Shown here piece by piece: positions 960-26,708 of a stretch of DNA of 64,000 nt (position 1 is its first letter; each line of letters begins with the position of its first letter). A program made the translations under genes and the position numbers. The notes under the pieces are model-generated. The model had not been told where the DNA came from. It did not search any database and saw nothing but the letters and a program-made list of their open reading frames with translations. This DNA is from Bacteroidota bacterium. GTDB taxonomy: Bacteria > Bacteroidota > Ignavibacteria > SZUA-365. Location of the stretch: assembly GCA_003246455.1 (NCBI GenBank), contig QKAF01000093.1, positions 1 through 64,000 of the forward strand, in the 5' to 3' direction.

Positions 960-2573
960 TTACTCGATAACCGTCAGTTCGACGCGGCGGTTGCGCTGGC
1001 GGCCCTGCGGCGTCTCATTATCGTCGATCGGCTGCGATTCGCCGTATCCCTTCGAGATGATGATGTCCTCAGGGACGCCATGCTCGATGAGATACTTCCG
1101 CACGGCCGCGGCGCGGCGTTCGGAAAGATCGAGGTTGTACTCTTCCGTCCCCAGAGCGTCGGTATGCGCCGCGATTTCGAAGCGGCGGCCCGGGTTCTGG
1201 AGAATGAACCGGATGGCGCGCTCGAGTTCGGGCTTCGATTCGGGACGCAGGGTCGCCTTGTCGAAGTCGAAGAGCACGGTCAGGTTCGTTTTTGGCGGAA
1301 CGGTGATGATTGGCGGTATTGGTTCGAGAGCAATGTTCTTTTCGAGACGGCGGTATGTCGTCAGTTCCGGAACTTCGAATACTTCAGACTTGAAGATGTA
1401 CCCTTTCTGTTCGGCGCTGATGCGGTATTCGCGTCCGGCCGGAACGATGAACTGGTACTGCCCGCTTTCGAGGCTCTGAAACTTGTTGATGATTTCGCCC
1501 GTACCGTAGTCCTCGATCGTGATCGGCGTCGATGCCAGCGGCTGATTGGTCTCGATATCGGTGACCACGCCGTAGATATTGACGACCGCATCCGGGGGGA
1601 ACGGGGGATCGAGGAGCATGAACAGATCGAATTCTCCGTAGCCGCCCGGACGGTTGGACGCGAAATACAGCGTATCGCCGGAGAGCGTGGAGGAGATGAA
1701 CACGTCATCGTTCTTGGAATTGATGGGATATCCGAGGTTCATCGGACGCGACCAGCGGCTTCCCTGGTTGCGGGTGACATAGAGGTCCATGCCGCCGGCG
1801 GCCTTTGAATTTTCACCGTCGGGATAGCCGTCGGAGGCGTAGTACAGCGTGCGGCCGTCAAACGCGATGGAGGGTGTGCGCTCCTCGCCTTTGGTGTTGA
1901 CATCGGGACCCAGGTTCACCGGGCGTCCCCATGTGCCGTCGAGCTGCTTCCGAGACAGCCAGATATCCGTTCCGCCATAACCGCCCGGACGATCCGACGC
2001 GAAATACAGCGTGCGGCCGTCGGGAGAAATGGAAGGCTGCGATTCCCAGTACGTAGTGTTGATATGATCGAAATTATCGACGATCGAGGTCAGACGGAGG
2101 TCCGTGCCTTCGGGATTGTCGAGATTGCGGGCTTTCGACCATTCGGTGCCCTTGTCATTCCATTCGGCGACATAGATGTCGCACTTGCCGTAACCGTCAG
2201 GCTGCTGGCAAAGCGCCATGAACAGCGTGCGGCCGTCGGGAGAAATGGAGATGGCACCCTGTGATTCCGGAGTGTTGATCACTTCGGAGAGATAGACTGG
2301 TTTTTCCCAGTTCGTCTCGATGTGGTCGACGCGATAAACGTCGTCCCAGTAATCCTGACGCTTGGGGTTGGGGCGGCGCGACGTGAAGAACAGCGTGCCG
2401 TTGGCGGTCACTGCCGGGGCATAATCGTCCCAGGGCGAGTTGACGTTTTCGCCAAGGTTCTCCACCACACCTCCCGTGACCAGCGCGATGTCTGCAGGGT
2501 CCGAACCGGAACAACCCGCGATCAGCACGCTGCAAAAGATTAGGCTTGTGATATAAGTGGCGTACCGTTGCAT
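960..2573 (-). CDS. PD40 - carboxypeptidase-regulatory-like - OmpA lipoprotein (PorE-like)
   Basis: A 537-residue lipoprotein. The signal ends in a lipobox (LIAGC). It is followed by at least four PD40/WD40-like propeller blades (SPDGRTLYFASDRPGGYGG type), a carboxypeptidase-regulatory-like beta sandwich (VNIYGVVTDIETNQPLAST), and a C-terminal OmpA domain (DFDKATLRPES, AAHTDALGTEEYN, QRNRRVEL) that should bind peptidoglycan. Propeller, sandwich and OmpA in this order match the T9SS component PorE, except that the N-terminal TPR segment of PorE is absent. A role anchoring a secretion or gliding complex to the cell wall is therefore inference. ATG at 2573 is preferred over TTG at 2582 because it starts the signal peptide. 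The gene follows the beta-barrel gene by 44 bases, probably as one transcript. Confidence 0.88.
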   Translation of the reverse strand: MQRYATYITSLIFCSVLIAGCSGSDPADIALVTGGVVENLGENVNSPWDDYAPAVTANGTLFFTSRRPNPKRQDYWDDVYRVDHIETNWEKPVYLSEVINTPESQGAISISPDGRTLFMALCQQPDGYGKCDIYVAEWNDKGTEWSKARNLDNPEGTDLRLTSIVDNFDHINTTYWESQPSISPDGRTLYFASDRPGGYGGTDIWLSRKQLDGTWGRPVNLGPDVNTKGEERTPSIAFDGRTLYYASDGYPDGENSKAAGGMDLYVTRNQGSRWSRPMNLGYPINSKNDDVFISSTLSGDTLYFASNRPGGYGEFDLFMLLDPPFPPDAVVNIYGVVTDIETNQPLASTPITIEDYGTGEIINKFQSLESGQYQFIVPAGREYRISAEQKGYIFKSEVFEVPELTTYRRLEKNIALEPIPPIITVPPKTNLTVLFDFDKATLRPESKPELERAIRFILQNPGRRFEIAAHTDALGTEEYNLDLSERRAAAVRKYLIEHGVPEDIIISKGYGESQPIDDNETPQGRQRNRRVELTVIE

Positions 2574-2617
2574 GTATACCAAATCCGCGTTGTGTTGAAA
2601 AATCGTGAGTTGAAGGA

Positions 2618-3406
2618 TCAGAAGGCTTCGTACTTGAGACCGATGGAGAACTGGACAGACATGACTTTCCAGTCATCGATCGGAATTTCCTTCCCGCGAT
2701 CATTGATGGCGTCCGTGATCTTCGTCAGCGGATACCCGACGCGAATTTCAGGATTGATGTACCAGCGGGGTTGGACGATGTAATCGTAGCCGAAACCCAC
2801 CATACCTTCAAGACGCAGCGAACCGGTGAAATCTCCGGTGGACACTTCACGTTTCGTGTCCAGGAGTTCGCGATACGAGAGTTCCGCGTCCACGATTTCC
2901 TGATTGTGGCGGACCTGGGATGCCACGGCGAGTCCGACGGCGGGACCGGCGAACACGTACCAGCGCGAAAGGCGCGGCTGCCAGCGGGCGAACAGGCCGA
3001 AGGTCACGTACGAGAGACTGACGTCGCCGATCTCGTTGTACGTGACGTCGTTGATGACGACGCTCTCGCCGGTGGCGATGGGCGTGGCGATGTCGCGTTC
3101 GTACTGCGTGTTCGTATGCTTGTTGTCGTAGTACACCTTCGCCATCACCGCCCATGAAGGCGACCAGGCGTAGGTGACGTCGGCACCGAGCTGCGCACCG
3201 ATGTTGGCCAGATTAAAACCGCCTTCAAACAGACAGTCGCAATCCGTTTTGAAGTCCCCCATGTTGGTGTTCTGGTTTAACCCCAGAAACCCGCTGACGA
3301 ATACACGCGATACATCAGGACTGTAGACGGTCTGTGCCATTCCGACGGAAGACACGAACAGCAGGCTTGCGATCGCAAAGCATGATCGCAGGAAAGGTAA
3401 TCTCAT
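2618..3406 (-). CDS. Outer-membrane beta-barrel protein
   Basis: A 262-residue protein with a cleavable signal peptide (FAIASLLFVSSVGMAQ). The mature part is made of alternating aromatic and hydrophobic strands (VTYAWSPSWAVMAKVYYD, YVTFGLFARWQPRLSRWYVF) and ends in a strand terminating in Phe (FSIGLKYEAF), typical of 8- to 10-strand PorT/OmpX-like barrels. ATG 3406 was chosen because an AGGTG ribosome site precedes it and the signal starts there; an in-frame ATG lies at 3424. It is the first gene of a short operon with the PorE-like lipoprotein, under the promoter at 3582-3609. The specific function cannot be read from the sequence. Confidence 0.8.
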   Translation of the reverse strand: MRLPFLRSCFAIASLLFVSSVGMAQTVYSPDVSRVFVSGFLGLNQNTNMGDFKTDCDCLFEGGFNLANIGAQLGADVTYAWSPSWAVMAKVYYDNKHTNTQYERDIATPIATGESVVINDVTYNEIGDVSLSYVTFGLFARWQPRLSRWYVFAGPAVGLAVASQVRHNQEIVDAELSYRELLDTKREVSTGDFTGSLRLEGMVGFGYDYIVQPRWYINPEIRVGYPLTKITDAINDRGKEIPIDDWKVMSVQFSIGLKYEAF

Positions 3407-3560
3407 AAGCACACCTGATATCAATGACCAAGAATAAGACCTTTTACGTTTTTTATTCGCTGAATAAGAAAAAAACCATCCTCACACCGTGGCGGTGACG
3501 CCCAATATCGCGCTGCAAAGGATGGAAAGAGACCGTAAGTACTTAAAAACAGACAATTTA

Positions 3561-3686: not shown

Positions 3687-4445
3687 TCACAGCAATTTGT
3701 GTTGAGCGAATAGCTTTTGTTCAGCCAGTCTCCAGATACGCTGACACGGAAAAACATTTGCGTACAAGACCTCGTCGAGAACGACGGAATCGATTTTCCG
3801 TGGATGCAGATTCTGGAGAAGCTTGAGATCCCGGTAGTGGCGGACGGAACCATTCAGCGTGACTGACAAATTAGTCGATTCTACAAGGCAAAGCAAGAAG
3901 TTGACGGGCGGACCGGCAATGTTTTCTTGCGTCTCCTTTTCCGTGACGAGAACGCGCTGAACGCCCGCATTCGCAAGCCGAAACGCGAATGCCGTCGCAT
4001 CGACACGGATCGGGGAACCACCTTCCTTTGAAATTATCTCGCCGTCGACGACGTCGAGGGCAACCACGATCTTGCGCGGACCGTATTCGGCAAGAAGCGC
4101 ATCAAGTTCGCCGTCCAGGGCGAAAACGGCCGGATCGATCACCACGCGGTAGACACCGATTTCATCGAGCGCGCGCCGCACATCATCCATGGAAGTGAAA
4201 ACGCCGCCGAGCTGAACGGCGATGTCCACGGCCTGCACCACTTCACGCAGCTGCGCCACCTGCCCTCCCGGCCCCTGCAGGGCGAGGTCCAGACAGACCA
4301 CATGCAGGGCCTTGGCGTTTTCACCGCGCCAGAGCCGGGCGACCTGCACCGGGGAGTACGGGTACAGTCCTTCCGTCCCGGGCTCTCCGACCGCGGTTCG
4401 CGTGCAGCTGCCGCTGCTGATATGCATGGCGGGAATGACGAGCAT
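3687..4445 (-). CDS. Degenerate HisA-like TIM-barrel protein
   Basis: A 252-residue protein that aligns by eye along its length with HisA (ProFAR isomerase, histidine biosynthesis). Matches are the start (MLVIPAMHISSGSC against IPAIDLKDGKC), SPVQVARLWRGENAKALHVV, VQLGGVFTSMDDVRRAL, VALDVVDGEI and AGPPVNFL. The first catalytic Asp of HisA (IPA-I-D) is His here, while the second (VALD) is kept. The phosphate-binding segments are altered (LGGVF for LGGGI; NGSVRHYRDL for SGGVSSLEDI). It is therefore probably not a working ProFAR isomerase and may have another ligand. No other his gene is nearby. It starts 5 bases after the preceding lipoprotein gene and is the last gene of the ndk-NUDIX-namZ operon. 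Confidence 0.75.
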   Translation of the reverse strand: MLVIPAMHISSGSCTRTAVGEPGTEGLYPYSPVQVARLWRGENAKALHVVCLDLALQGPGGQVAQLREVVQAVDIAVQLGGVFTSMDDVRRALDEIGVYRVVIDPAVFALDGELDALLAEYGPRKIVVALDVVDGEIISKEGGSPIRVDATAFAFRLANAGVQRVLVTEKETQENIAGPPVNFLLCLVESTNLSVTLNGSVRHYRDLKLLQNLHPRKIDSVVLDEVLYANVFPCQRIWRLAEQKLFAQHKLL

Positions 4446-4450
4446 GCAGA

Positions 4451-5536
4451 TCAGGGTTTCTGATAGGGTTCGATGACATTGACGACATGGGCATTCTGGG
4501 TGTACCAGAAATCATGTGCCTGATCAGGAGCGAGTTCCTTGAGTTCCGCGGGCGGTTCGACCCACATCTTGACCTTCACGTCGGTACGAAGGCGCCTGCG
4601 CTGCACGCGCCCGAAATCCAGGTTGAACACGGTGCTGCCGAGACCCTTCACGTCGAATTCATTCATGGTCGCCATGCCCTGGCCGGTGTCCATCACCTTT
4701 TTCCCGACGTAATCCGACTTGATCGCCGCATCGATATGCGCTACCTGTCCGTTCGGGGACTTCACGATATCGCGGACGGTGTAGGTCGCCGCGTTCCGCA
4801 CGGCCAGGTATCCGATACGGTCGGGACGGATGATGCTCCAGCTCGAGTCCTTCCCCACGGGCGTTTCCGCCAGCTTCTGGAAGGCCAGCTGCAGAACGGC
4901 CTTGATTCCCGTCTCCGCGTAGTCCCGCGCGATCCCTTCCATCTGGTTCGATTTCGTCGTACGGAAATCGTCCTTCAGGTAGTTCTTGATCACCTCGGTC
5001 AGACCGGTCACATCGGCGATGCGACCGTCCTTGTCGATGACGATGACGAACGGCGTATTCACCGGCGCATTGTACTGGGCGAAACGCTTCTCGATGTCGT
5101 AGCTGTTTTTCTCCTTCGAATCATAGGTGGCGGTCTGTTTCCCGCCGGGGCCCTCGTAGCTTCCGCTGAAGCTCACGCGATCGCACATGGCGCGCAGCCG
5201 TGCGCCGCCCTCGGCTCTCGCCTCGAGCACCTCGAAACGATACCAGTAGCTGAGTTCCTGGTGGTTGATGTTTTGGATGGTGTCCTGCGTCACGGTGACG
5301 TCCTCGGTATTCCGGATCATGTACCCGAAGGTGTCGCCCGGTTTCATGCGGTAGAAGAGCATCACGGGGGCTTCCAGCGTCACCGACGGACCGCGGTCGT
5401 CCGTGGTGTAGGTCTCGGTGTCCATTGCGAGTCTTGCCGAATCGGCTTCGGTGCCGGCTGCGGCCTCCTGCTGTTCTCCGCTTCTGCACGCGGTAAGGGA
5501 CAGGAATGAAATGAGGAACACGAACAGATATTTCAT
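4451..5536 (-). CDS. Lipoprotein of unknown function (DUF6263-like)
   Basis: A 361-residue protein with a lipoprotein signal (FLISFLSLTAC) and a low-complexity Glu/Ala linker. The rest is predominantly beta (MLFYRMKPGDTFGYMIRNTEDV, VIVIDKDGRIADVTGL). The layout recalls lipoproteins annotated as DUF6263, but I cannot confirm this without a search. It lies 20 bases downstream of namZ and 5 bases upstream of the HisA-like gene, so it is co-transcribed with a peptidoglycan-recycling enzyme. A periplasmic or outer-membrane role is inferred from the lipobox only. Confidence 0.72.
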   Translation of the reverse strand: MKYLFVFLISFLSLTACRSGEQQEAAAGTEADSARLAMDTETYTTDDRGPSVTLEAPVMLFYRMKPGDTFGYMIRNTEDVTVTQDTIQNINHQELSYWYRFEVLEARAEGGARLRAMCDRVSFSGSYEGPGGKQTATYDSKEKNSYDIEKRFAQYNAPVNTPFVIVIDKDGRIADVTGLTEVIKNYLKDDFRTTKSNQMEGIARDYAETGIKAVLQLAFQKLAETPVGKDSSWSIIRPDRIGYLAVRNAATYTVRDIVKSPNGQVAHIDAAIKSDYVGKKVMDTGQGMATMNEFDVKGLGSTVFNLDFGRVQRRRLRTDVKVKMWVEPPAELKELAPDQAHDFWYTQNAHVVNVIEPYQKP

Positions 5537-5556: not shown

Positions 5557-6771
5557 TCAGGGATATAACAGATAGGGAATTCGTCTGGCCGAGAAGCGGC
5601 GGATGTCCTCGGCGCTGCGCCGGATCGCGTCCTCGATCGGAAGTTTGATAAACCCCGAAACACCGGCCAACAAATCAAGATACGATGTGAAGGATAGAAA
5701 TGCACCATACTGCGCGCGGACTTCATCGAGAATATTCACGCCGGTGCGGAAGGCATTGAAGGTCGCGCGATCGGTGATTTCGATACGCACTCCGGCGCAG
5801 CGCTCGCCGGTGAACCGCGGATGCGGCGCCCCCCGTCGCGGGTCGGGTGTGAAGTGCGCGGTGTGGAATCGCACACCCGGCAGCTGGCGGGCTTCGAGTC
5901 CCGCGCACAGCGCTTCCGCATCGACGAACGGCGCGCCGAAAACAAGGAACGGCGTGTCGGTGCCGCGGCCTTCACTGAGATTGCTTCCTTCCAGCAGACA
6001 GGTGCCAGGATAGGCGAATGCCGCATCGACGGAGGGAATGTTCGGCGAGGGTGATACCCACGGCAGACCGGTCGCATCGAAGTCCATCCCCCGCCGCCAG
6101 CCGTCGCAGGGGATCACGGTCAGCTGCGGTGCGGCGCCGTCTCGCAGCCAGCCTTCGCCGACGGCCATGCGCAGCGCCTCCCCTGCGGTGAGTCCGTGCC
6201 GCACCGGCAGCGGCAGGTACCCGACGAACGAGCGCTGACTCTCGTCGCGTACCGGGCCTTCCATCTTCACTCCGCCGAGGGGATTCGGCCGGTCACAGAC
6301 GATGACGCGGACGCCGGTTTCCGCCGCGGTTTCGCAGCACATCGCCATCGTGCTGATATACGTGTAGAAGCGCGCGCCGATGTCCTGAAGGTCCATGACC
6401 AGCACATCGATGCCGTCGAACATTGCCGGCGTCGGACGGCGCGTGATCCCGTACAGCGAGTGCAGCGGCACATCTCCCGCCATGCCGGAGGCGACCGCCT
6501 CCCCGTCGGCGGCGGAACCGCTGAATCCGTGTTCCGGCGAGAATACCGCCGTGACCGTCAGTTCCGGATGCGCACGCAGGACATCGAACAGCATCTCCCC
6601 GCTCGCCAGACGCGAGGTGTGATTGGCCAGGAGACCGACACGCTTTCCCTTGAGCAGATGCAGGGAATCCGCAATGAGGACGTCGGCCCCCGTGCGCACC
6701 TGTCCGCGGAGCGACGGCGTGAGGCCGCCCAGCAGGAGCAGAAGGCAGACAAGCAGCCGCGTCCGGACCAA
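5557..6771 (-). CDS. namZ: Exo-beta-N-acetylmuramidase NamZ (DUF1343, GH171)
   Basis: A 404-residue protein with a signal peptide (LLVCLLLLLGGLTPSLRGQ) and the hallmark blocks of DUF1343: KGKRVGLLANHTS, FSPEHGF, DVLVMDLQDIGARFYTYISTM, VCDRPNPLGG, LPWVSPSPNIPS and EGSNLSEGRGTDTPF. Members of this family remove terminal N-acetylmuramic acid from peptidoglycan fragments, so the protein should act outside the cytoplasmic membrane in cell-wall recycling. Translation appears to start at TTG 6771, directly after the NUDIX stop, with a strong GGAGAGGAG ribosome site inside the end of the NUDIX gene. Coupled translation is likely. Confidence 0.9.
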   Translation of the reverse strand: MVRTRLLVCLLLLLGGLTPSLRGQVRTGADVLIADSLHLLKGKRVGLLANHTSRLASGEMLFDVLRAHPELTVTAVFSPEHGFSGSAADGEAVASGMAGDVPLHSLYGITRRPTPAMFDGIDVLVMDLQDIGARFYTYISTMAMCCETAAETGVRVIVCDRPNPLGGVKMEGPVRDESQRSFVGYLPLPVRHGLTAGEALRMAVGEGWLRDGAAPQLTVIPCDGWRRGMDFDATGLPWVSPSPNIPSVDAAFAYPGTCLLEGSNLSEGRGTDTPFLVFGAPFVDAEALCAGLEARQLPGVRFHTAHFTPDPRRGAPHPRFTGERCAGVRIEITDRATFNAFRTGVNILDEVRAQYGAFLSFTSYLDLLAGVSGFIKLPIEDAIRRSAEDIRRFSARRIPYLLYP

Positions 6772-7341
6772 TCACTCCTCTCCTTTCGCGGGCGGCGCTG
6801 CCGGTCGCGGTTTCAGGGACTGATAGAGCGACCAGGCGGCGAGCGTCATGCCGTCCCAGATACTGCCTTCCGCAATGGCGCGCCGGATCCGGTCCTCGCT
6901 CCATTGCACGATTTCGAATTCTTCCGTGGTGTCCGGCGCCGCGCCGACCTCATGGAGTCCGGTCGCGAGCGAAACGCGGCAGAGCTCGTCCGTCACGCCG
7001 TTAAACGGATTGAATTGTCCGATTTCTTCAAGGCGGTCCGCTTCAAGTCCCGCTTCCTCGCGCAGTTCCGCCCGCGCCGCTTCTTCCGGCGACTGCCCGG
7101 CTTTTATTCCGCCCGCGGGAAACTCGATGCTCTCGCGGCGGTTCAGGTAGCGGTACTGTCGGACCAGGACAAGAAGGCCGTCAGCGCGGACCGGCACAAG
7201 CATCACCGACCCCGGCGTCTGCACATAGTGGTACACGCCCTCGCCGCCGGACGGCAGCGTGACGGCGTCCCGCTTGTACGTCCACCACGGATTGCGGAAG
7301 AGCGTCTCCTCGGCGCGTTTTTTCCAGACACCGAGCGCCAT
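6772..7341 (-). CDS. NUDIX hydrolase (ADP-ribose pyrophosphatase type)
   Basis: A 189-residue protein with a complete Nudix box (GGIKAGQSPEEAARAELREEAGLE) preceded by an upstream strand typical of ADP-ribose or nucleotide-sugar pyrophosphatases (VLVRQYRYLNRRESIEFPAGG). It should hydrolyse a nucleoside diphosphate linked to another moiety, with Mg2+ bound by the REEAGLE helix. The start is one base after the ndk stop, and the stop abuts the namZ start, so the three genes form one transcript. The exact substrate is not readable from sequence. Confidence 0.88.
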   Translation of the reverse strand: MALGVWKKRAEETLFRNPWWTYKRDAVTLPSGGEGVYHYVQTPGSVMLVPVRADGLLVLVRQYRYLNRRESIEFPAGGIKAGQSPEEAARAELREEAGLEADRLEEIGQFNPFNGVTDELCRVSLATGLHEVGAAPDTTEEFEIVQWSEDRIRRAIAEGSIWDGMTLAAWSLYQSLKPRPAAPPAKGEE

Positions 7342-7342
7342 G

Positions 7343-7765
7343 TCAGACCGGGTTGATGAGGTCGCGCCCGGCGAAGAAATAGGCGATTTCCGTCAGCGCG
7401 TTCTCGACGCTGTCGGAGCCATGAACGATATTTTCCCCCTTGCTGTCGGCGAAGCGTTTGCGCACCGTTCCTTCCTCCGCCTCGCGCGGATCGGTGGCGC
7501 CGATGAGCGTACGGAAATCCGCGACGGCATTCTCTTTCTCCAGCACCATCGGAACGCAGGTCCCCGACGACATGAACATCACGAGATCGTTGAAGAAGGG
7601 CCGGTCGCGATGGACCTCGTAGAATCCGCCGGCAGTGTCGGGCGTCAGGCGTACCATGCGCATGCCGCGGATGGTGAATCCGGCTTCGGTGATCATTTTG
7701 ACGACATCGCCGATGAGGTTTTTTCTCACGCAGTCAGGCTTGAGTATCGCGAGTGTTTTTTCCAC
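7343..7765 (-). CDS. ndk: Nucleoside diphosphate kinase
   Basis: 140 residues, the standard length. It begins [21 protein letters not shown] and carries the catalytic histidine in ENIVHGSDS, plus the conserved [22 protein letters not shown] and [15 protein letters not shown] blocks. It transfers the gamma phosphate between NTPs and NDPs through phosphohistidine. GTG 7765 is the start by family length; an upstream in-frame extension exists but is not Ndk-like. A GAGGAG ribosome site precedes it. First gene of the operon ndk-NUDIX-namZ-lipoprotein-HisA-like. Confidence 0.96.
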
Positions 7766-7800
7766 GGAGGACTCCTCGTTTGTGTTCAGATGAAAGGTTA

Positions 7801-7810
7801 CGAAAAATAC
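7801..7810 (-). promoter_or_regulatory. Probable -10 element of the ndk operon
   Basis: The minus strand reads TTCGTATTTTTCG about 40 bases before the ndk start, the same 13-base block found before glyA (49433-49445). No clear -35 element is visible. Confidence 0.35.
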
Positions 7811-7842
7811 GAATTCTGCGGAATGCGGGATGACGAACCGCC

Positions 7843-8793
7843 TCAGCGCCGAAGAAGCCCGCGCGCCCACTCACAGCATCCGCTGTCATCGGAAGTGGTG
7901 ACGATCAGCATGACCCGTGTCGGATCGGCGGCCACCACCCGCTGCACGCCGGCCCGGACAAACGACGGGAGCGCGCAGGTCTGTCTCCGCGCACCCATGT
8001 AGGCCTCCAGCTGCTGCACCAGTTCCGCCGCGAAGGCCGCCGCCGCCGTGGCCTGCCGGAAGGGGAAAAGCATCACCGTTCGACGTCCCCCCGCATGGCG
8101 TTTTTCGAATTCCGCGACATAGGCGGCGTGGGAGTTCAGTACGGGCAGGAGTCCTTCCGGCAGATGCGTGTGCATCGCCCTCCACGCCACGGCATCCGGG
8201 GGAAGGTAGCGCTCCGAGCCCAGCACGCGTTCGTCCGTCGGCAACGGGAAATCGCTTCCGTAGCAGTCCGCATGCGCGAAGAGGACGCGGCGGGTCCGGA
8301 CAACCAGCGCCTCATCGGGCGGCACAGCCGTGCGGGTATCCGCGGTGGCGACGCGGAAGTAAAACGGCCCGAAATTGACATGTGCCGCGCTTCGCTCGTA
8401 GGCGAACGCGTCGCCGATGATGCCCTGCGGTGCGCTCACGTATGCGGAATTCCCTGCCGCGGATATGCCGTCCGCCATCGCGTGAAAAAGGCCGAAGGCG
8501 CGCTCGCGGCTCGGAAGCTGCGCGACCTCGATGCGCAGGGATTTCCCCTGCTGCGCGTATGTCACGACACGGAATTCCGAAACGCCATACGCGTTCCAGG
8601 TATCCGTGCGCTCTCCCAGCGACGCCTTCCAGTCCTCCTGCGGTACGAGCGTTTCCCCGGTTTTCCGCCACGCGTACACGGTATCGGGGAAGATCTGCGC
8701 CGCGGCATCCGGGGAAATCGCGGGGAGGCAGAGCAGAAAAAAGAGAAAGACGAGACGGCGCCTGCGCAGCGCAGCGCGGACGAGGCGGTTCAT
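7843..8793 (-). CDS. Secreted DUF6599-like protein
   Basis: A 316-residue protein with a signal peptide ([20 protein letters not shown]). A central block ([14 protein letters not shown], then [15 protein letters not shown]) matches the second such protein at 40117-41010 (YGFRQVTGQRC, then EMVNPEAAFGMFSVL). I therefore place both in the family usually called DUF6599, whose function is unknown. ATG 8793 overlaps the stop of the methyltransferase gene (ATGA), indicating translational coupling. The context is an operon with a radical SAM protein and a methyltransferase. A pair of adjacent cysteines near the end (SGCCEW) is noticeable. Confidence 0.75.
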
Positions 8794-13638: not shown

Positions 13639-15351
13639 TTAGAAATCGTCCCGCTCGACGTAATGCGTATGCAGCAGCTCGTGCGCGAGATGCCCGGCGG
13701 GTTCACCAAGGAATTCGGCATAGAGCTTCTGCACCGATTCGTTGCGGTGGCTGTTGCGGCGCGGCGATTCACGGTCGATCTGGTAGATGCTCTCCGTGCG
13801 CTTGCGAAGCTTTTCGGGGGTCGCCGGCAGGGGCTGGCCGCCGCCGTTGACGCAGCCGCCCGGGCATGCCATGACTTCAATGAAGTGGAAGGACGATCTT
13901 CCGGCCTGAATATCGTCGAGCAGCGGTTTGATATTCTTCAGCCCGCTGACCGCGGCGACCTTCAGCGTCACATCGCCCACGCGAACGTCGGCCTGCTTGA
14001 CGCCTTCGAGCCCGCGGATCGGAGCGAACGTCAGGGACTTCATGTCGCTGCCGGTCAGGTAATAGTGCGCCGTGCGCAGCGCCGCTTCCATGACACCGCC
14101 CGCCGCGCCGAAAATGGCGCCGGCGCCGGTGGATTCTCCCATCGGATCGTCAAAGCCTTCGTTCGGCAGCTTGTGAAAATCGATGCCGGAGACGCGGATC
14201 ATGCGCGCGAGTTCGCGCGTGGTCAGCACGGCGTCGACGTCGGGATATTCGCCGCCGAGTTCCGGCCGCTGCGCCTCGTACTTCTTTGCCGTGCACGGCA
14301 TGATGGAAACGACGAAGATACGCGACGGGTCGACTCCGATTTTTTTCGCGTAGTAGGTTTTCAACAGAGCCCCTTGCATCTCGTGCGGAGACTTGCACGA
14401 TGAGAGGTTCCCGAGCAGATCAGGGTAGTAATGTTCGATGAACTTTACCCATCCCGGGCTGCAGGAGGTGAGCATCGGAGTCGACCCGCCGTTGTTCAGG
14501 CGGTGCAGAAGCTCGGTGGCTTCTTCTATGATGGTGAGATCGGCGCTGAAGTTGGTGTCGAAAACGCGGTCAAAGCCGATGCGCCGCAGCGCCGCGACGG
14601 TTTTCCCGGTCGCGACGGTTCCGGCGTCTGCCCCGAATTCCTCGGCAAGCGCCACGCGCACGGCGGGCGCGACCTGCACCACGACCATGAGGTCGGGGTT
14701 GTTGATCGCTTCCCATACGGGTTTCTGGCTGCTTTTCTCGGTCAGCGCGCCGACGGGACAGTTGACGACGCACTGCCCGCAGTCGACGCAGGGCACGGTG
14801 TTGAGGCTGCGCTCGAGCGCGGGAGCCACGCCGCTCTTGAACCCGCGGTGCACGAAGTCGATGGCGCCGACGTGCTGGGTTTCATGGCAGATGCGCACGC
14901 AGCGGCCGCAGAGAATGCACTTCTCCGGGTCGCGCTCGATGGCGGGACTCGCGATATCGATACGCGCACGGCGGCGTTCGCCCTGGAAGCGATGGGTGCG
15001 TACGCCGTATTCCTGCGTGAGCTTCTGCAGTTCGCAGTTTCCGGAGCGGACGCAGAACAGGCAGTCCTGCGGGTGATTCGCCACAAGCAGTTCGATGATG
15101 GTCTTGCGCGCGCGGCGCACGCGCGGGGAGTTCGTCCGGATGGCCATTCCCTCATATACCGGGAAGGCGCAGGCGGGGACGAGATTATTGGCGTTCTCCA
15201 CTTCCACCGTGCAGATGCGGCACGAGCCGGTCGGGGAGAATTCCGACAGATGACAGAGGGTCGGGATGTTCACGCCCTCCCGCCGGGCGACGTCAAGCAC
15301 GGTCTCTCCCGGCTTGGCCCAGCATGTATGTCCGTTCAATGTGATATTCAT
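13639..15351 (-). CDS. hydA: [FeFe]-hydrogenase catalytic subunit HydA (NAD-linked, trimeric type)
   Basis: 570 residues. The N-terminal [2Fe-2S] domain (FSPTGSCRICTVEVE), the His/Cys [4Fe-4S] segment (NHPQDCLFCVRSGNCEL) and a two-cluster ferredoxin domain (CILCGRCVRIC, CVDCGQCVVNCP) are those of NuoG-like HydA. The H-cluster motifs follow: L1 TSCSPGW (about residue 298), L2 MPCTAKKYEA (about 354) and L3 EVMACPGGCVNGGGQ (about 497). The second residue of the usual CC pair in L1, the proton-relay Cys, is Ser here. A C-terminal helical extension contains LAHELLHTHY. With HydB and HydC it should form the soluble complex coupling H2 to NADH and ferredoxin by electron bifurcation. Maturases HydEFG are not in the window. 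Confidence 0.95.
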   Translation of the reverse strand: MNITLNGHTCWAKPGETVLDVARREGVNIPTLCHLSEFSPTGSCRICTVEVENANNLVPACAFPVYEGMAIRTNSPRVRRARKTIIELLVANHPQDCLFCVRSGNCELQKLTQEYGVRTHRFQGERRRARIDIASPAIERDPEKCILCGRCVRICHETQHVGAIDFVHRGFKSGVAPALERSLNTVPCVDCGQCVVNCPVGALTEKSSQKPVWEAINNPDLMVVVQVAPAVRVALAEEFGADAGTVATGKTVAALRRIGFDRVFDTNFSADLTIIEEATELLHRLNNGGSTPMLTSCSPGWVKFIEHYYPDLLGNLSSCKSPHEMQGALLKTYYAKKIGVDPSRIFVVSIMPCTAKKYEAQRPELGGEYPDVDAVLTTRELARMIRVSGIDFHKLPNEGFDDPMGESTGAGAIFGAAGGVMEAALRTAHYYLTGSDMKSLTFAPIRGLEGVKQADVRVGDVTLKVAAVSGLKNIKPLLDDIQAGRSSFHFIEVMACPGGCVNGGGQPLPATPEKLRKRTESIYQIDRESPRRNSHRNESVQKLYAEFLGEPAGHLAHELLHTHYVERDDF

Positions 15352-15366
15352 GATGTTCCTCGATGC

Positions 15367-17364
15367 CTAGTTCACGTAAATCGCTTCGAAATTGCAGTTC
15401 ACGCGGCACTGATCGCAGCGGATGCATTTATCGTCGATGATGTAATGCGCCTTCTTCTTCTCGCCGACGATGGCCTGCTCCGGACACTTGCGTGCGCACA
15501 CGCCGCAGCCGTTGCACCGGTCGGTGTCGATGTGGAAGGTGAGCAGCTCGCGGCACGCGCCGGCGGGGCAGACACGCTCGTACAGATGCGCCTCATACTC
15601 GTCGCGGAAATAGTGCAGCGTGCTCAGGACCGGGTTCGCCGCGGTCTGACCGAGACCGCAGAGCGACGTGTCCTGAATCACCGAAGCCAGGCGTTCGAGA
15701 TAGACCATGCCCTGGAAGCGCAGCAGCGCGTCTTCCTGTGTGTTCTCGTCGCGATGGCTGCGCGTCAGGCGTTCGAGGATTTCAAGCAGTCGAAGCGTCC
15801 CCTCGCGGCAGGGAATGCACTTGCCGCAGGACTCCGACTGGATGAAGGTCATGAAATACTTGGCGAGATCGACCATGCAGGTGTCCTGGTCCATGACCAC
15901 CAGTCCGCCGGAACCCATCATGGCCCCGACTTCCTTGAGACTTTCATAGTCGACCGGCGTATCGATCACCTGTTCCGGCAGCGCGCCGCCGGAGGGACCG
16001 CCGATCTGCACCGCCTTGAACGTTTTGCCGTCGGGGATGCCGCCGCCGATATCGAAAATGATCTCGCGCAGCGTGGTGCCCATCGGCACCTCGACAAGTC
16101 CGACATTGCAGACGTTGCCCGAAAGCGCGAATATCTTCGTGCCTTTGGAGGTCTGCGTTCCGATCGCGGCGTACCACTCCGGCGAGTTCTTGAATATCGT
16201 CGAGACGTTCGCATACGTCTCGACATTATTGATCACGGTCGGTTTGCCGAAAAGGCCCGAGACCGCGGGGAACGGCGGACGCGGGCGCGGCATGCCCCGC
16301 CTGCCTTCGATCGAATGAATCAGCGCGGTTTCCTCACCGCAGACAAAGGCGCCGGCGCCTTTCTTGATGCGCATGTCAAAGGAGAAACCGCTGCCGAGAA
16401 TATTCCGTCCGAGCAAACCGTATGCCCGGGCCTCCTGCAGCGTCTTTTCGAGCCGGCGGATCGCAAGCGGATATTCCGCCCTGCAGTAGATATACCCGTA
16501 TGTGGCCCCGATCGCGTAGGCGGCAATGATCATGCCTTCGACCACGCGATGCGGATCGCCTTCGAGAAGCGCGCGGTCCATGAACGCCCCGGGATCGCCT
16601 TCATCGGCGTTGCAGATGAGGTATTTTTTGTCCGCTTTCTGATCGTGCGCGAACTGCCACTTCTTGCCTGTCGGGAATCCGCCGCCGCCGCGTCCGCGCA
16701 GTCCGGCGGTAAGAACATCGTCAATGACGTTCTGGGATGACCGTGACAGCAGCACCCGCGACAGACCGGCATACCCGCCGCGCGCGAGGTACTGATCGAT
16801 GCTCTCCGGATCGATCACACCGCAGTTTTCGAGATTGATCTTCTTCTGCTTGCGGAAAAAGCTGTCCTCGGCGAGCAGCGGCATGCCGCTCCAATCGGGG
16901 GCACCGTCGAGGCTGTAGAGCCCGAGCAGTTTGTCCTCGATCACCTCGCCGCCGATAAGCGTCCGCTCCACGAGAGCGGGGACGTCGCGCAGCGTCACCT
17001 GCGCATAGCTGATGCGCGGACGACCCGGCAGCTTGATGTCAACGATCACTTCACGGGCGCAATACCCGACACAGCCGACTGGGATAACGGAAACGTACAG
17101 ATCCCGCGCCTGGGCTTCCGCCAGGATTGCGTCGTGGATCTGCTGGGCGCCGTTGGCGAGGCCGCAGGTCCCCATGCCCACCAGGACGACCGGCACGTCG
17201 TGCTCGATCATCAGCAGGGCGCGTTTGTAGTGCTCGAGCCTGTGCGCGCTCTCGTCCGAACACGCGCACTGCTGGCCGAGCTGCACGCAGTCGACGAAAC
17301 GAGGACACGGTTTCTCCGCGCAGTGCCAGCACTGCTCGAAGCAGTTTTGACTAAATGCATTCAT
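15367..17364 (-). CDS. hydB: NADH-binding diaphorase subunit HydB (NuoF-like)
   Basis: 665 residues. Domains in order: a cysteine-rich N-terminal segment (Cys 8, 12, 15, 20, 26, 33, 35); a thioredoxin-like [2Fe-2S]-type region (VVLVGMGTCGLANGAQQ, VGCVGYCAREVIVD); the NuoF core with the FMN/NADH glycine loop GLRGRGGGGFPTGKKW (about 231) and NADEGDPGAFMDRALLEGDP; the N3-type cluster SCGKCIPCREGTLR (about 511); and a C-terminal two-cluster ferredoxin (CNGCGVCARKCP, CIRCDQCRVNC). It oxidises or reduces NAD(H) through FMN and passes electrons to HydA. It overlaps hydC by 14 bases and ends 15 bases before hydA, so one transcript is expected. Confidence 0.95.
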   Translation of the reverse strand: MNAFSQNCFEQCWHCAEKPCPRFVDCVQLGQQCACSDESAHRLEHYKRALLMIEHDVPVVLVGMGTCGLANGAQQIHDAILAEAQARDLYVSVIPVGCVGYCAREVIVDIKLPGRPRISYAQVTLRDVPALVERTLIGGEVIEDKLLGLYSLDGAPDWSGMPLLAEDSFFRKQKKINLENCGVIDPESIDQYLARGGYAGLSRVLLSRSSQNVIDDVLTAGLRGRGGGGFPTGKKWQFAHDQKADKKYLICNADEGDPGAFMDRALLEGDPHRVVEGMIIAAYAIGATYGYIYCRAEYPLAIRRLEKTLQEARAYGLLGRNILGSGFSFDMRIKKGAGAFVCGEETALIHSIEGRRGMPRPRPPFPAVSGLFGKPTVINNVETYANVSTIFKNSPEWYAAIGTQTSKGTKIFALSGNVCNVGLVEVPMGTTLREIIFDIGGGIPDGKTFKAVQIGGPSGGALPEQVIDTPVDYESLKEVGAMMGSGGLVVMDQDTCMVDLAKYFMTFIQSESCGKCIPCREGTLRLLEILERLTRSHRDENTQEDALLRFQGMVYLERLASVIQDTSLCGLGQTAANPVLSTLHYFRDEYEAHLYERVCPAGACRELLTFHIDTDRCNGCGVCARKCPEQAIVGEKKKAHYIIDDKCIRCDQCRVNCNFEAIYVN

Positions 17365-22982: not shown

Positions 22983-25900
22983 TTAACGCATTCTGATGAA
23001 ACGTCTGCTGAGGGTTTCGGTTCCCGACTGCAGGGTATAGAAGTACACCCCTCCGGGAAGCTGCGACGTATCGAATGCGACCGCGTGCTCGCCGGCGCTC
23101 ACGGTGCCGTGCAGCGGCACGGCAATTTCGATCCCGGCGCTGTTGTACACGCGGAGCATGACCGTCTCGCGACGGGAGAGCGTGAACGGCAGCATGACGA
23201 TCGAAGCGGCCGGGTTCGGCCAGGCGGCCTGCAGAAGCATGCTCTGCGGCAGACTCCCCGGTACGGACACGGCAAGCAGCGGATTCCCGCGGAGCGCCTG
23301 GACAATGCCGGATTTCGAGACGACCCAGCCGGTGAGAGTGTCGGCGAACACTGCGTCCTGCACGGAACCCGACGGCGCAAGCACGGTCTTCTTCCATGAG
23401 GTGCCGAGGTCGCCGCTGACCCAGGCGCTCTCGTCGTTCACGATCCAGACGACATCCGACCCGTCGAAACTCTGCACGTCCGCGTTCCGGCTCCCGCTCA
23501 TGGGATAGAAAGCGGCGCGCCAGCTCTCCCCGCCATTGATCGATCGGCGCACGAACCCGGTGACATCGTCGACACAGAAGCCCCGCTCCTGCGTACCGAA
23601 GGAAATCGCGGCGACATTCTGCGCAGAGACCTTCGCTTCGACCCAGCTCCTGCCTCCGTCCGTCGTGCGGAAAATCGACGCGTCGGCAGGATCCGAGCCC
23701 GCGGTATTCGACGAGGCGAACCAGCCGTGCGACTCGTCGATGAAGGTGAGGGTATTGTCGATGGGGAAACGCGCGGGCACCTGTGCTGCCTGTTTTTCCC
23801 AGGTCATGCCGCCGTCGGCCGTGAGATACACATCCGCCACGGACAGTTTGGCCGGATCCGGCGTGATCGCGATGCCGTGCTGCTCATCGTGGAAATAGAG
23901 GTTCCCGTAGCGCTCGTTGACGGTGGAAAGCAGGATTTCCCAGTTCTGTCCGCCGTCGACGGTTTTCATGATATGCCCGCTGCGTGTCCCGACCACGGCC
24001 CGGTCGCTGTCGAACGCGTGAATATCGAGCACCTGGGCATTGATCCCGGGGAGCGCCTGGTGCGTCCATGTCAGACCGCCGTCGGTGGACCGCGAGACGA
24101 GAGCGCTGTCGCGGCCCAGCCACAGCGTCGCGGGCGGGCCATAGGCCATCACGTTGACCGCAGTCGACATCGGCTGGGGCTGGACGATCTGCCAGTCGGC
24201 GGAGGAGCCGCCGCGTACGGTCAGGGAAAACTGCTGCGTCACGCTGCCATGCGCGTTCCAGGCCTCCAGGGTGAAGTCCGCGGAAAGTCCGGCGGCCGGC
24301 CAGCGGACGAAACCCAGCACCGTATCGACGTCGGCACCCGCAGGGGCGGCGATCAGCCGGAAGCGCGCTTCGGGTGACGCATCAACCACCGGGGCATAGA
24401 AAAACAGCTGCCCGGCATCAAGGGTATCCGGGGGCGGGACGGTGGCAAATACGGGCGGGTGCGCCGCGGGAGAGGCCCACTGCAGATCATAGATCCCGCG
24501 GCCGTGCGTGAATGCGCGCAGCGTTCCGGTACGCGCGCTGAATGCGAACCGCTGCACGGAAATGGCGGGCATGCCCGTACCGAGCCGCTGCCAGCTGAGG
24601 CCTTCGTCCGCGGAGATGAACGCTCCGAGATCCGTCCCGAGGATAATTTTCCCGTCCAGTTCGATCAGGTCGTTCACCGGGATGTCGGGCAGGTCGGCGT
24701 TGATGCTCGCCCAGGTCACGCCCGTGTCGAGACTCCGCCACACCTTGTCGATACCGTAGCGACTGAACGTGGCATAGAAGATTCCCGCCCGGAAGCTGTG
24801 AACGGAACTGCAGTATCCCTGCGGAAGCGCGCCCGTTTCCACCACGGTCCAGCTTTCCCCGGCGTCGCGGGAGATCGCGACACCGCCGCCGGCACCGCCG
24901 CCCATGACGATGCTGCCGTCATACGGAGCTACCGCAAGCGATGAGATGTAGTAGCAGCCGCCGGAGGTCGGCACGAGGCAGCTGTTCTTCATCACCCAGT
25001 CCTGCCCGCCATTCGTGGATTTGTACAGCCGCGACGTGCCGAGATACATCAGCTCGGGATTGTTCTGGTCCATTGCGAAATCGATGTAGAAAAGGGAGCG
25101 GTCGAGCCCGAGCCCCCGCTGGGCTTTCGTCCAGGTGGCGCCGAAATCATCCGAACGATAGAACTTCAGCGTCTCCTTCGTGGTGTACATGGTCTGCGGC
25201 CGTACGGGATTGATGGCACCATTCCCTCCGTCGCCGTACAGCGCCAGGTCGAAATCCGGACCGTCGCCCGACAGCAGCGTCCCGTTGTCCTGCGTGCCGC
25301 CGAACAGGACGGCGTCGCTCGACGGATGCATCGCGCCCCCGATGAACTGCGTGATCGACAGCCCGTATCCGCGCTTTTCCCAGGACGCCCCGTCGCCGCC
25401 GCCGACGAAAAATCCGCCGTCGTTTCCGAGATACACCACCGAAGGATCCTGGAGGTTGAATGCGATCGCGTGCTGATCGACGTGAACGATGCCGCCGTAG
25501 CCCTGGTCAGGGACGCGCGTCCAGCTCGTCCCCCCGTCGGTGGTGACGATGATTTTCACTCCGCCGGCGTACACGATGTCGGGATTCGTCGGATGGACGC
25601 CCATGATATTGTCGTACCAGCCCTGTGACGCCATGTAGTCGAACGGAACCTCCAGCTTCTGCCATCGCGCGCCGCCGTCGGTGGTCTTGAACACCCCCAG
25701 CAGCGGGGTGAGGTCATTGCCCGTGATGTCGGAGACGCCGATATAGAGCACGTCCGGCTCCGCGTCGCAGATGCCGATGCTCGTGCGGCCCATCAGCGAA
25801 TCCGTGATCCCCACATCGAGCTTGAACCAGCTGTCTCCACCATCGGTTGTCTTGTGCATGCCGTAGCGCGGCGCGGTTCCCCCGCCGAAGACGGCGCTCG

Positions 25901-26708
25901 AGTGCGTATAGAGCACGGAGGGATTCTGCGGATTGATGACGATGTCGGACATGCGCCCGGTGAGGACGAGCGACCAGGTCGCGCCCGCGTCCCGGCTGCG
26001 GTAGATGCCGATGCTGTCAGCGCTGCGTACCCCGTCGGGGATCGCTGCGTACAGTGTCGCCGGATTGGCGGGATCGATGACCAGATCGCTCGCGCGAGCG
26101 AAGGGCGGCAGCGTCCCCTGCCCGATCTCGAACCAGGTGGAGCCGCCATCCGTGCTTTTGAACATCCCGCCGCCGTCAAAGGTCCGCTGCGCGTAGCTTG
26201 CCTCGCCCGTTCCCGCGTACACGACGTTCGTGTCCACCGGGTCTATGGCGATGGCGCCCAGAGCCTGCGTGGGCAGGTCGTCCGATACCGCTTCCCAGTG
26301 GTATCCGGCGTCATAACTGCGCCAGATGCCGCCGCCCGCGGCGCCGATGAAAATGGTTTCGGCATTCAGCGGATTGACCGCCACGGTGATGATGCGGCCA
26401 CCGATATTCACCGGCCCTCTGTTGACCCAGGTCATGGCAGTCTGCATCCCGCCCTTCCCGGAAGGCGCGAAAAGCGGAAGCGATTCCTGCGCTTCGCGCC
26501 ATGCACGGACACGGGCCCCTTCGGGAATGCTTCCACCCGGATACGTCACCCTGTCGTAGAAATACCGCGCGCGCATGTCGGGATTCGACAGCGGCGGAGC
26601 ATTCTGCGGTTGGTCGTTCGGACGCGCGATCATCGGGTCCTGCTGCGCAACGGCATCCTGAATTGCCAGCACAGCGATACAGAGGAACAGAATGGGATAT
26701 CGACGCAT
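22983..26708 (-). CDS. Giant secreted BNR/ASP-box (sortilin-like) protein with T9SS-type C-terminal domain, copy 1
   Basis: 1241 residues with a signal peptide (FLCIAVLAIQDAVAQ). Many ASP-box/BNR repeats (SxDGGxTW forms: STDGGSTWFEIG, TTDGGARWQKL, SADEGLSWQRL, STDGGLTWTH) predict one or two beta-propellers of the sortilin/exo-sialidase-like type. Near residue 750 lies a putative Ig-like (He_PIG-like) domain that splits the two propeller regions. The C-terminus is a type A sorting domain (WPNP ... LRVYNSAGIEIAV ... GGVYFYTLQSGTETLSRRFIRMR). No catalytic residues can be assigned, so binding rather than hydrolysis is the safer guess. Adjacent to its paralogue with an 8-base gap. Confidence 0.85.
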   Translation of the reverse strand: MRRYPILFLCIAVLAIQDAVAQQDPMIARPNDQPQNAPPLSNPDMRARYFYDRVTYPGGSIPEGARVRAWREAQESLPLFAPSGKGGMQTAMTWVNRGPVNIGGRIITVAVNPLNAETIFIGAAGGGIWRSYDAGYHWEAVSDDLPTQALGAIAIDPVDTNVVYAGTGEASYAQRTFDGGGMFKSTDGGSTWFEIGQGTLPPFARASDLVIDPANPATLYAAIPDGVRSADSIGIYRSRDAGATWSLVLTGRMSDIVINPQNPSVLYTHSSAVFGGGTAPRYGMHKTTDGGDSWFKLDVGITDSLMGRTSIGICDAEPDVLYIGVSDITGNDLTPLLGVFKTTDGGARWQKLEVPFDYMASQGWYDNIMGVHPTNPDIVYAGGVKIIVTTDGGTSWTRVPDQGYGGIVHVDQHAIAFNLQDPSVVYLGNDGGFFVGGGDGASWEKRGYGLSITQFIGGAMHPSSDAVLFGGTQDNGTLLSGDGPDFDLALYGDGGNGAINPVRPQTMYTTKETLKFYRSDDFGATWTKAQRGLGLDRSLFYIDFAMDQNNPELMYLGTSRLYKSTNGGQDWVMKNSCLVPTSGGCYYISSLAVAPYDGSIVMGGGAGGGVAISRDAGESWTVVETGALPQGYCSSVHSFRAGIFYATFSRYGIDKVWRSLDTGVTWASINADLPDIPVNDLIELDGKIILGTDLGAFISADEGLSWQRLGTGMPAISVQRFAFSARTGTLRAFTHGRGIYDLQWASPAAHPPVFATVPPPDTLDAGQLFFYAPVVDASPEARFRLIAAPAGADVDTVLGFVRWPAAGLSADFTLEAWNAHGSVTQQFSLTVRGGSSADWQIVQPQPMSTAVNVMAYGPPATLWLGRDSALVSRSTDGGLTWTHQALPGINAQVLDIHAFDSDRAVVGTRSGHIMKTVDGGQNWEILLSTVNERYGNLYFHDEQHGIAITPDPAKLSVADVYLTADGGMTWEKQAAQVPARFPIDNTLTFIDESHGWFASSNTAGSDPADASIFRTTDGGRSWVEAKVSAQNVAAISFGTQERGFCVDDVTGFVRRSINGGESWRAAFYPMSGSRNADVQSFDGSDVVWIVNDESAWVSGDLGTSWKKTVLAPSGSVQDAVFADTLTGWVVSKSGIVQALRGNPLLAVSVPGSLPQSMLLQAAWPNPAASIVMLPFTLSRRETVMLRVYNSAGIEIAVPLHGTVSAGEHAVAFDTSQLPGGVYFYTLQSGTETLSRRFIRMR

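Follow-up and report, generated by a model that had tools for sequence, protein, structure and literature searches.

The last gene of a minus-strand operon in the window (the whole stretch of 64,000 nucleotides that was analysed) encodes a HisA-derived stand-alone protein of 252 amino acids (bp 3687 to bp 4445, minus strand, from the ATG at 4445 to the stop at 3687), which is neither an enzyme of the histidine pathway nor the product of a decaying pseudogene. The loss of HisA function and a change in the role of the protein are well supported, because the genome has no histidine pathway, the full trio of catalytic aspartates is found in none of 64 stand-alone proteins of this kind, and purifying selection acts on the gene. 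Most genomes of the class that have lost the pathway have retained a HisA homologue in which a different region has stayed unchanged, and this suggests that it now does a different job. Judging from sequence comparisons, we propose with moderate confidence that it is a HisA-derived pseudoenzyme retained for a non-catalytic job, most simply the binding of a partner, carried out by the face of the barrel opposite the active site.

Identity and active site of the HisA-like protein

The Pfam family His_biosynth (PF00977) covered residues 3-232 of the window protein with an E-value of 2.2e-31 (109.5 bits, against a gathering score of 23.6). This places the protein in the HisA/HisF superfamily of barrels along its full length, in line with the match to HisA described in an earlier note on this DNA, and its best relatives of solved structure were PriA/HisA chains (4wd0, E 8e-24). 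On the HisA model TIGR00007 it scored 115.4 bits, far below the cut-off of 228.95, and it is thus not assigned to HisA by that model. A scan over the contigs of its own genome revealed a single HisA-like locus. Elsewhere in the class, the intact HisA of G053 scored 280.7 bits on TIGR00007, and a catalytically incomplete copy (L059) from G025, a genome without HisB and HisD, scored 231.6 bits, above the cut-off. Annotation of L059 as HisA would likely be a misannotation, and copies of this type call for caution, as the name would credit G025 with a pathway step that is not present.

Active-site positions were assigned by alignment to PriA chains, and the codons were confirmed in the window sequence. 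The catalytic residues are given as Asp9 and Asp169, with Asp128, for PriA in one paper (PMC5404923) and as Asp11, Asp130 and Asp175 in another (PMC13055916); for these papers, as for PMC8305728 and PMC9052757 below, our statements refer to the parts of the text that were available. In the window protein, His8 (codon CAT, bp 4422-4424, minus strand) corresponds to the first catalytic Asp in HisA/PriA (position 11 of 1vzw), and Gln173 (codon CAA, bp 3927-3929, minus strand) takes the position of the catalytic Asp of loop 6 (PriA Asp169/Asp175). The beta-5 aspartate (PriA Asp128/130) is retained as Asp131 (codon GAC, bp 4053-4055, minus strand). The catalytic trio therefore reads HDQ, two of the three aspartates, those of beta-1 and loop 6 by which a HisA would be recognised, having been replaced. 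The phosphate loops are changed as well, from GGG to GGV at 80-82, from G to D at 104, from GG to GS at 199-200 and from G to D at 224, and three of nine active-site positions (8, 80, 81, 82, 104, 131, 173, 200 and 224) are intact. The earlier note had described both the replacement of the first catalytic Asp by His and the changed phosphate loops, and the alignment to PriA chains bears it out on each; the second Asp, which it reported as kept, is indeed present, but the acid of loop 6, which it did not mention, has also been replaced.

For comparison, 64 stand-alone proteins were assembled, leaving out two proteins of G024 and one fragment of G013, and 20 further stand-alone loci were drawn from the class matches listed, not from every match. 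Stand-alone and pathway copies were sorted by hand from the match positions, and pathway copies were checked by their his-gene neighbourhood. His8 is not a sequencing error, since it is common to nine genomes of one family (f1). It was found in nine of the 64 stand-alone proteins, every one of them in that family, and across 15 proteins of the window's order position 8 was H in nine, P in two, and T, V, R and A in one each. The conservation of this His among homologues, which had been put forward for survey, does not hold outside family f1, and His8 was rejected as a defining feature of the stand-alone lineage. Because it is restricted to one family, it is attributed to drift and not regarded as a key feature.

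One rival reading is a new enzyme that converts another substrate and in which His8 and Asp131, or other residues, perform catalysis. The fold has been kept, His48 is present in 63 of the 64 stand-alone proteins and Tyr228 in 62 of the 63 that are readable, and new pathways have taken up relatives of HisA, AdeK (PMC13055916) being one example. However, besides the six residues seen at position 8, the order has D, E, S or R at position 131 (Asp131 being present in only 39 of the 64 stand-alone proteins), no residue of loop 6 is common to the proteins of the order, and the pocket holds no other conserved set of catalytic residues, so that we consider a new enzyme unlikely. The new ligand that the earlier note had thought likely is unsupported for the window's order, where pocket positions have been lost and vary between genomes.

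Loss of the active site differs between groups of the stand-alone lineage. The trio DDD was found in 0/64 stand-alone proteins (one of them truncated), in 28 of 29 pathway HisAs of the same subfamily (28/28 of those fully readable, as the remaining one lacks its N-terminus) and in 11 of 12 ordinary HisAs. The commonest stand-alone trio was DDN (Asp8, Asp131 and Asn173), which occurs in 23 of the 64 proteins with the rest of the pocket largely intact, and 17 of the 64 deviate at one of the nine active-site positions only. These proteins favour ligand binding in the pocket, and exchange of the acid from Asp to Asn could preserve binding while stopping catalysis, as in a regulator that binds a phosphoribosyl-type metabolite without turnover and signals through the opposite face. 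Such a ligand sensor cannot apply to all members, given the three intact positions and altered phosphate loops of the window protein, and we judge it improbable.

Histidine and tryptophan pathway genes

The genome from which the window derives is 98.4% complete. It contains no other full-length PF00977 protein, and hence neither a HisF nor a second HisA, and HisD, HisB, HisH, TrpF and TrpC were found in none of the 16 genomes of the window's order that were searched (G000-G015). The sole HisF exception in the order was a HisF-like fragment (L084) on a 4-kb contig (C127) of G013, which is probably contamination. Among 61 genomes of the class, mostly MAGs, HisD was present in 15, HisB/IGPD in 17, HisH, as judged by TIGR01855 matches above the family cut-off, in 17, TrpF in 19 and TrpC in 17. 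The window genome is predicted to be a histidine auxotroph. According to the earlier note, the absence of any other HisA from a histidine-prototrophic genome would speak against a new role; no canonical HisA was found elsewhere in this genome, and the argument does not apply to it, as it is a predicted auxotroph rather than a prototroph.

These results also bear on whether the protein could still be an enzyme of the HisA, TrpF or PriA type, for which its homology to HisA/PriA over the full length would speak. A HisA function was rejected because both the rest of the histidine pathway (HisF, HisH, HisB and HisD) and the catalytic residues are missing. A TrpF/PriA function would be expected where the tryptophan pathway lacks TrpF only, but TrpC (PF00218) was also absent when G000 and the order were searched, and with neither TrpC nor TrpF this function was rejected too. 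With two of the three catalytic aspartates replaced and HisD, HisB, HisF, HisH, TrpC and TrpF all lacking, we regard a remaining activity of this type as extremely improbable.

Stand-alone HisA homologues were carried by 37 of the 44 class genomes that lack both HisD and HisB. The gene is not essential everywhere, since seven of these 44 pathway-less genomes are without it. Seven of the 17 class genomes with HisD or HisB also carry a stand-alone copy, and in these the his cluster has an ordinary HisA too. Weak TrpF homologues (59-110 bits), either extra or lone, were observed in G016, G023, G026, G029, G031, G032, G035, G041, G044, G050, G053 and G059, three of which (G023, G029 and G035) are without TrpC. 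They may be a further case of a barrel retained in a new role.

Conserved residues and the WRxEN subfamily

The stand-alone copies have the motifs R-x-E-N, D-S and F-x-C-Q-x-x-W-x-x-x-E, which ordinary HisAs are without, and the subfamily was named WRxEN here from the motif W-R-x-E/Q-N. In the window protein, all on the minus strand, these are R40-G-E42-N43 at the end of alpha-1 (bp 4317-4328; invariant in 64/64 stand-alone proteins), Asp219-Ser220 at the start of beta-8 (bp 3786-3791) and the alpha-8 motif F232..C234-Q235..W238...E242 (bp 3720-3752), the last two being invariant in all 63 readable stand-alone proteins. Also invariant are Arg100 (bp 4146-4148), which is aligned with HisF Lys99, and Arg164 (bp 3954-3956), in a column that has Glu in 12 of 12 HisF rows. 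Nine residues (R40, N43, R100, R164, D219, S220, F232, C234 and W238) were all present in 63 of the 64 stand-alone proteins, the exception being truncated at a contig end, and were complete in 28 of 29 WRxEN pathway HisAs as against none of 12 ordinary HisAs; as they were picked after the conservation table had been seen, these counts are a description and not a blind test.

These motifs also occur, with looser conservation of E42, Q235 and E242, in pathway HisAs of the class genomes G021, G031, G040, G053, G164 and G283, which adjoin hisH and hisF. The same applies to HisAs at 22 loci from the phylum's other classes, with 54-59% identity, and hisH was adjacent in 19 of the 22. A rooted tree, built without G022 and G241 (both truncated), 11 of the 22 outside HisAs and the ordinary HisAs of G024, G033 and G054, gave the WRxEN clade support of 100/99 and placed the intact class HisAs among the stand-alone copies. 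The window protein belongs to this clade and has all nine residues. A single stand-alone clade was not rejected by the AU test (p-AU 0.08), and catalysis may therefore have been lost once or several times.

Within the family, dN/dS was 0.11-0.39 among the pairs listed, and in every pair listed dN was lower for residues 185-252 than for residues 1-184. The window gene is under purifying selection. Loss of catalytic residues together with purifying selection elsewhere in the protein is the pattern of a putative pseudoenzyme. A decaying relic without a strong function, whose invariant residues serve folding only, would agree with the seven pathway-less genomes that are without the gene and with neighbours that vary between lineages. 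On the other hand, the reading frame is intact in all but one contig-edge truncation, dN/dS is well below 1, the gene has been retained in 37 of 44 pathway-less genomes, and seven genomes retain a copy beside his genes that include an ordinary HisA, all of which makes a relic very unlikely.

Among known systems, the pathway HisA of the Chlorobi/Rhodothermota type belongs to the same subfamily and tree clade and has the motifs R.[EQ]N, DS and F.C..W, but it has kept all catalytic residues and has hisH beside it in 19 of 22 loci from other classes, whereas the stand-alone copies have lost these residues and are located elsewhere. An extra C-terminal region has been described in the HisA of Chlorobi and Rhodothermota (PMC8305728), and we infer that this long-C-terminus HisA is the WRxEN subfamily. 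The same survey describes a his operon of the ordinary type, probably acquired by transfer, in Ignavibacterium and Melioribacter, which fits the pattern observed here, and its available part makes no mention of a second, stand-alone HisA copy. PriA, SubHisA2 and SubTrpF of Actinomycetaceae (PMC5404923) are similar in that a HisA-family gene has been kept after loss of his and/or trp genes with changes to active-site residues; however, in the accessible text they are described as still being enzymes, less efficient and under relaxed selection in reduced genomes, whereas the window protein has lost catalytic aspartates themselves and its genome is without any his or trp gene tested. AdeK and SubTrpF2 are likewise HisA/PriA relatives recruited elsewhere beside a normal HisA or PriA, but they are reported to have retained measured HisA or TrpF activity, and AdeK lies in an antibiotic gene cluster (PMC13055916). 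In the parts available, the closest published parallels are thus PriA derivatives that continue to act as enzymes (PMC5404923, PMC13055916). The open-access literature, as far as it was available, yielded no account of a HisA lineage without catalytic function, subscription journals being mostly outside the search.

The non-catalytic face and the operon

A regulatory or partner role is possible for the window protein and is the reading that we prefer. In the layout of the barrel, the loop that follows alpha-1 lies, with the beginnings of beta-2, -4, -6 and -8, at the face remote from the active site, and it is by this face that HisF binds HisH. The invariant residues of the stand-alone proteins would accordingly be placed on this N-terminal, non-catalytic face and on helices alpha-1 and alpha-8. 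R100, R164 and K45 of the window protein share alignment columns with HisF Lys99, Glu167 and Asp45, respectively, Glu167 being given in Thermotoga numbering. A partner-binding face is suggested because these three residues occupy such columns, and Lys99 and Asp98 are named among the HisF:HisH interface residues in the available part of PMC9052757. Part of the invariant set would in this way occupy the columns of HisH-contact residues, several invariant columns coinciding with interface columns of HisF. The likeness to HisF-HisH does not extend to the charges (R164 versus Glu, K45 versus Asp), to the genome, which is without HisH, or to the sequence, which groups the window protein with HisA. 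HisH itself was rejected as the partner, as TIGR01855 was above its cut-off in 17 of the 61 genomes and in none of G000-G015. The simplest alternative to a binding surface is that the invariant residues may hold the fold of this subfamily together as an internal network. A structure prediction from two sequences (the window protein and L039) was poor, with a mean pLDDT of 57.8 and with residues 1-80 and 225-252 below 50.

The ancestor of the window protein would have been a member of the HisA subfamily that serves as a pathway enzyme in sister classes of the phylum, and the second role was probably already present in this ancestral HisA and would have outlived the histidine pathway. More tentatively, and with some doubt on our part, the HisA of the Chlorobi/Rhodothermota lineage might moonlight through its conserved non-catalytic face, the stand-alone copies being separation-of-function variants that keep this function after loss of the pathway. 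If this is true, a textbook metabolic enzyme has an unrecognised second job across a bacterial lineage, exposed by pathway loss, and the stand-alone copies point to the residues that are worth mutating in experiments.

In the window's order, the protein would be co-expressed with an envelope operon (NamZ and the DUF6263 lipoprotein). The minus-strand run consists of ndk, for nucleoside diphosphate kinase (bp 7343-7870, true start probably nearer 7765), a NUDIX hydrolase gene (bp 6772-7341), a gene for the exo-beta-N-acetylmuramidase NamZ (bp 5557-6771), the DUF6263 lipoprotein gene directly upstream (bp 4451-5536) and the HisA-like gene, with gaps of 1, 0, 20 and 5 bases, respectively. Across 15 loci of the order with the HisA-like gene, several of them on cut contigs, homologues were found of NamZ in 14, of the DUF6263 lipoprotein beside the HisA-like gene in 12 and of the NUDIX hydrolase in eight. 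On the 3' side, a gap of 262 bases precedes an outer-membrane beta-barrel gene (bp 2618-3424, minus strand), which is probably its own transcription unit, and downstream is a PD40/OmpA outer-membrane protein gene (bp 960-2582, minus strand); homologues of each were found in 12 of the 15 loci. A promoter-like TTGACA-16-TATATT lies in this gap (bp 3609-3582, minus strand), the scan having found three such sites against 3.0 expected by chance.

The operon had earlier been described as containing ndk, a NUDIX hydrolase and a muramidase, with no his genes nearby; these neighbours were confirmed, the muramidase being NamZ. Its conservation, also raised for survey, holds within the order but not across the class, as the neighbours of the HisA-like gene outside the order, several of which were named by eye from sequence, change from lineage to lineage. 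This variation is a point against the partner role, and the conserved operon was rejected as a general clue to function beyond the order. In family f15 (L062, L067, L073 and L078), genes for an apparent urocanate hydratase (histidine breakdown) and IspH, both recognised by eye, come after the stand-alone HisA-like gene. In families f11 and f13 (L059, L064, L069, L070, L076, L077, L081 and L082), the HisA-like gene is followed by an apparent cyclic-nucleotide-binding protein and then a UspA-like protein, again by eye.

Two other genes of the window were noted. At bp 13639-17364 is the large subunit of an iron-only hydrogenase, which carries NuoG-like domains and has a NuoF-like protein next to it, an arrangement known from electron-bifurcating hydrogenases, and at bp 22983-26708 is a sortilin/BNR-repeat protein of 1241 amino acids with a type IX secretion sorting tail.
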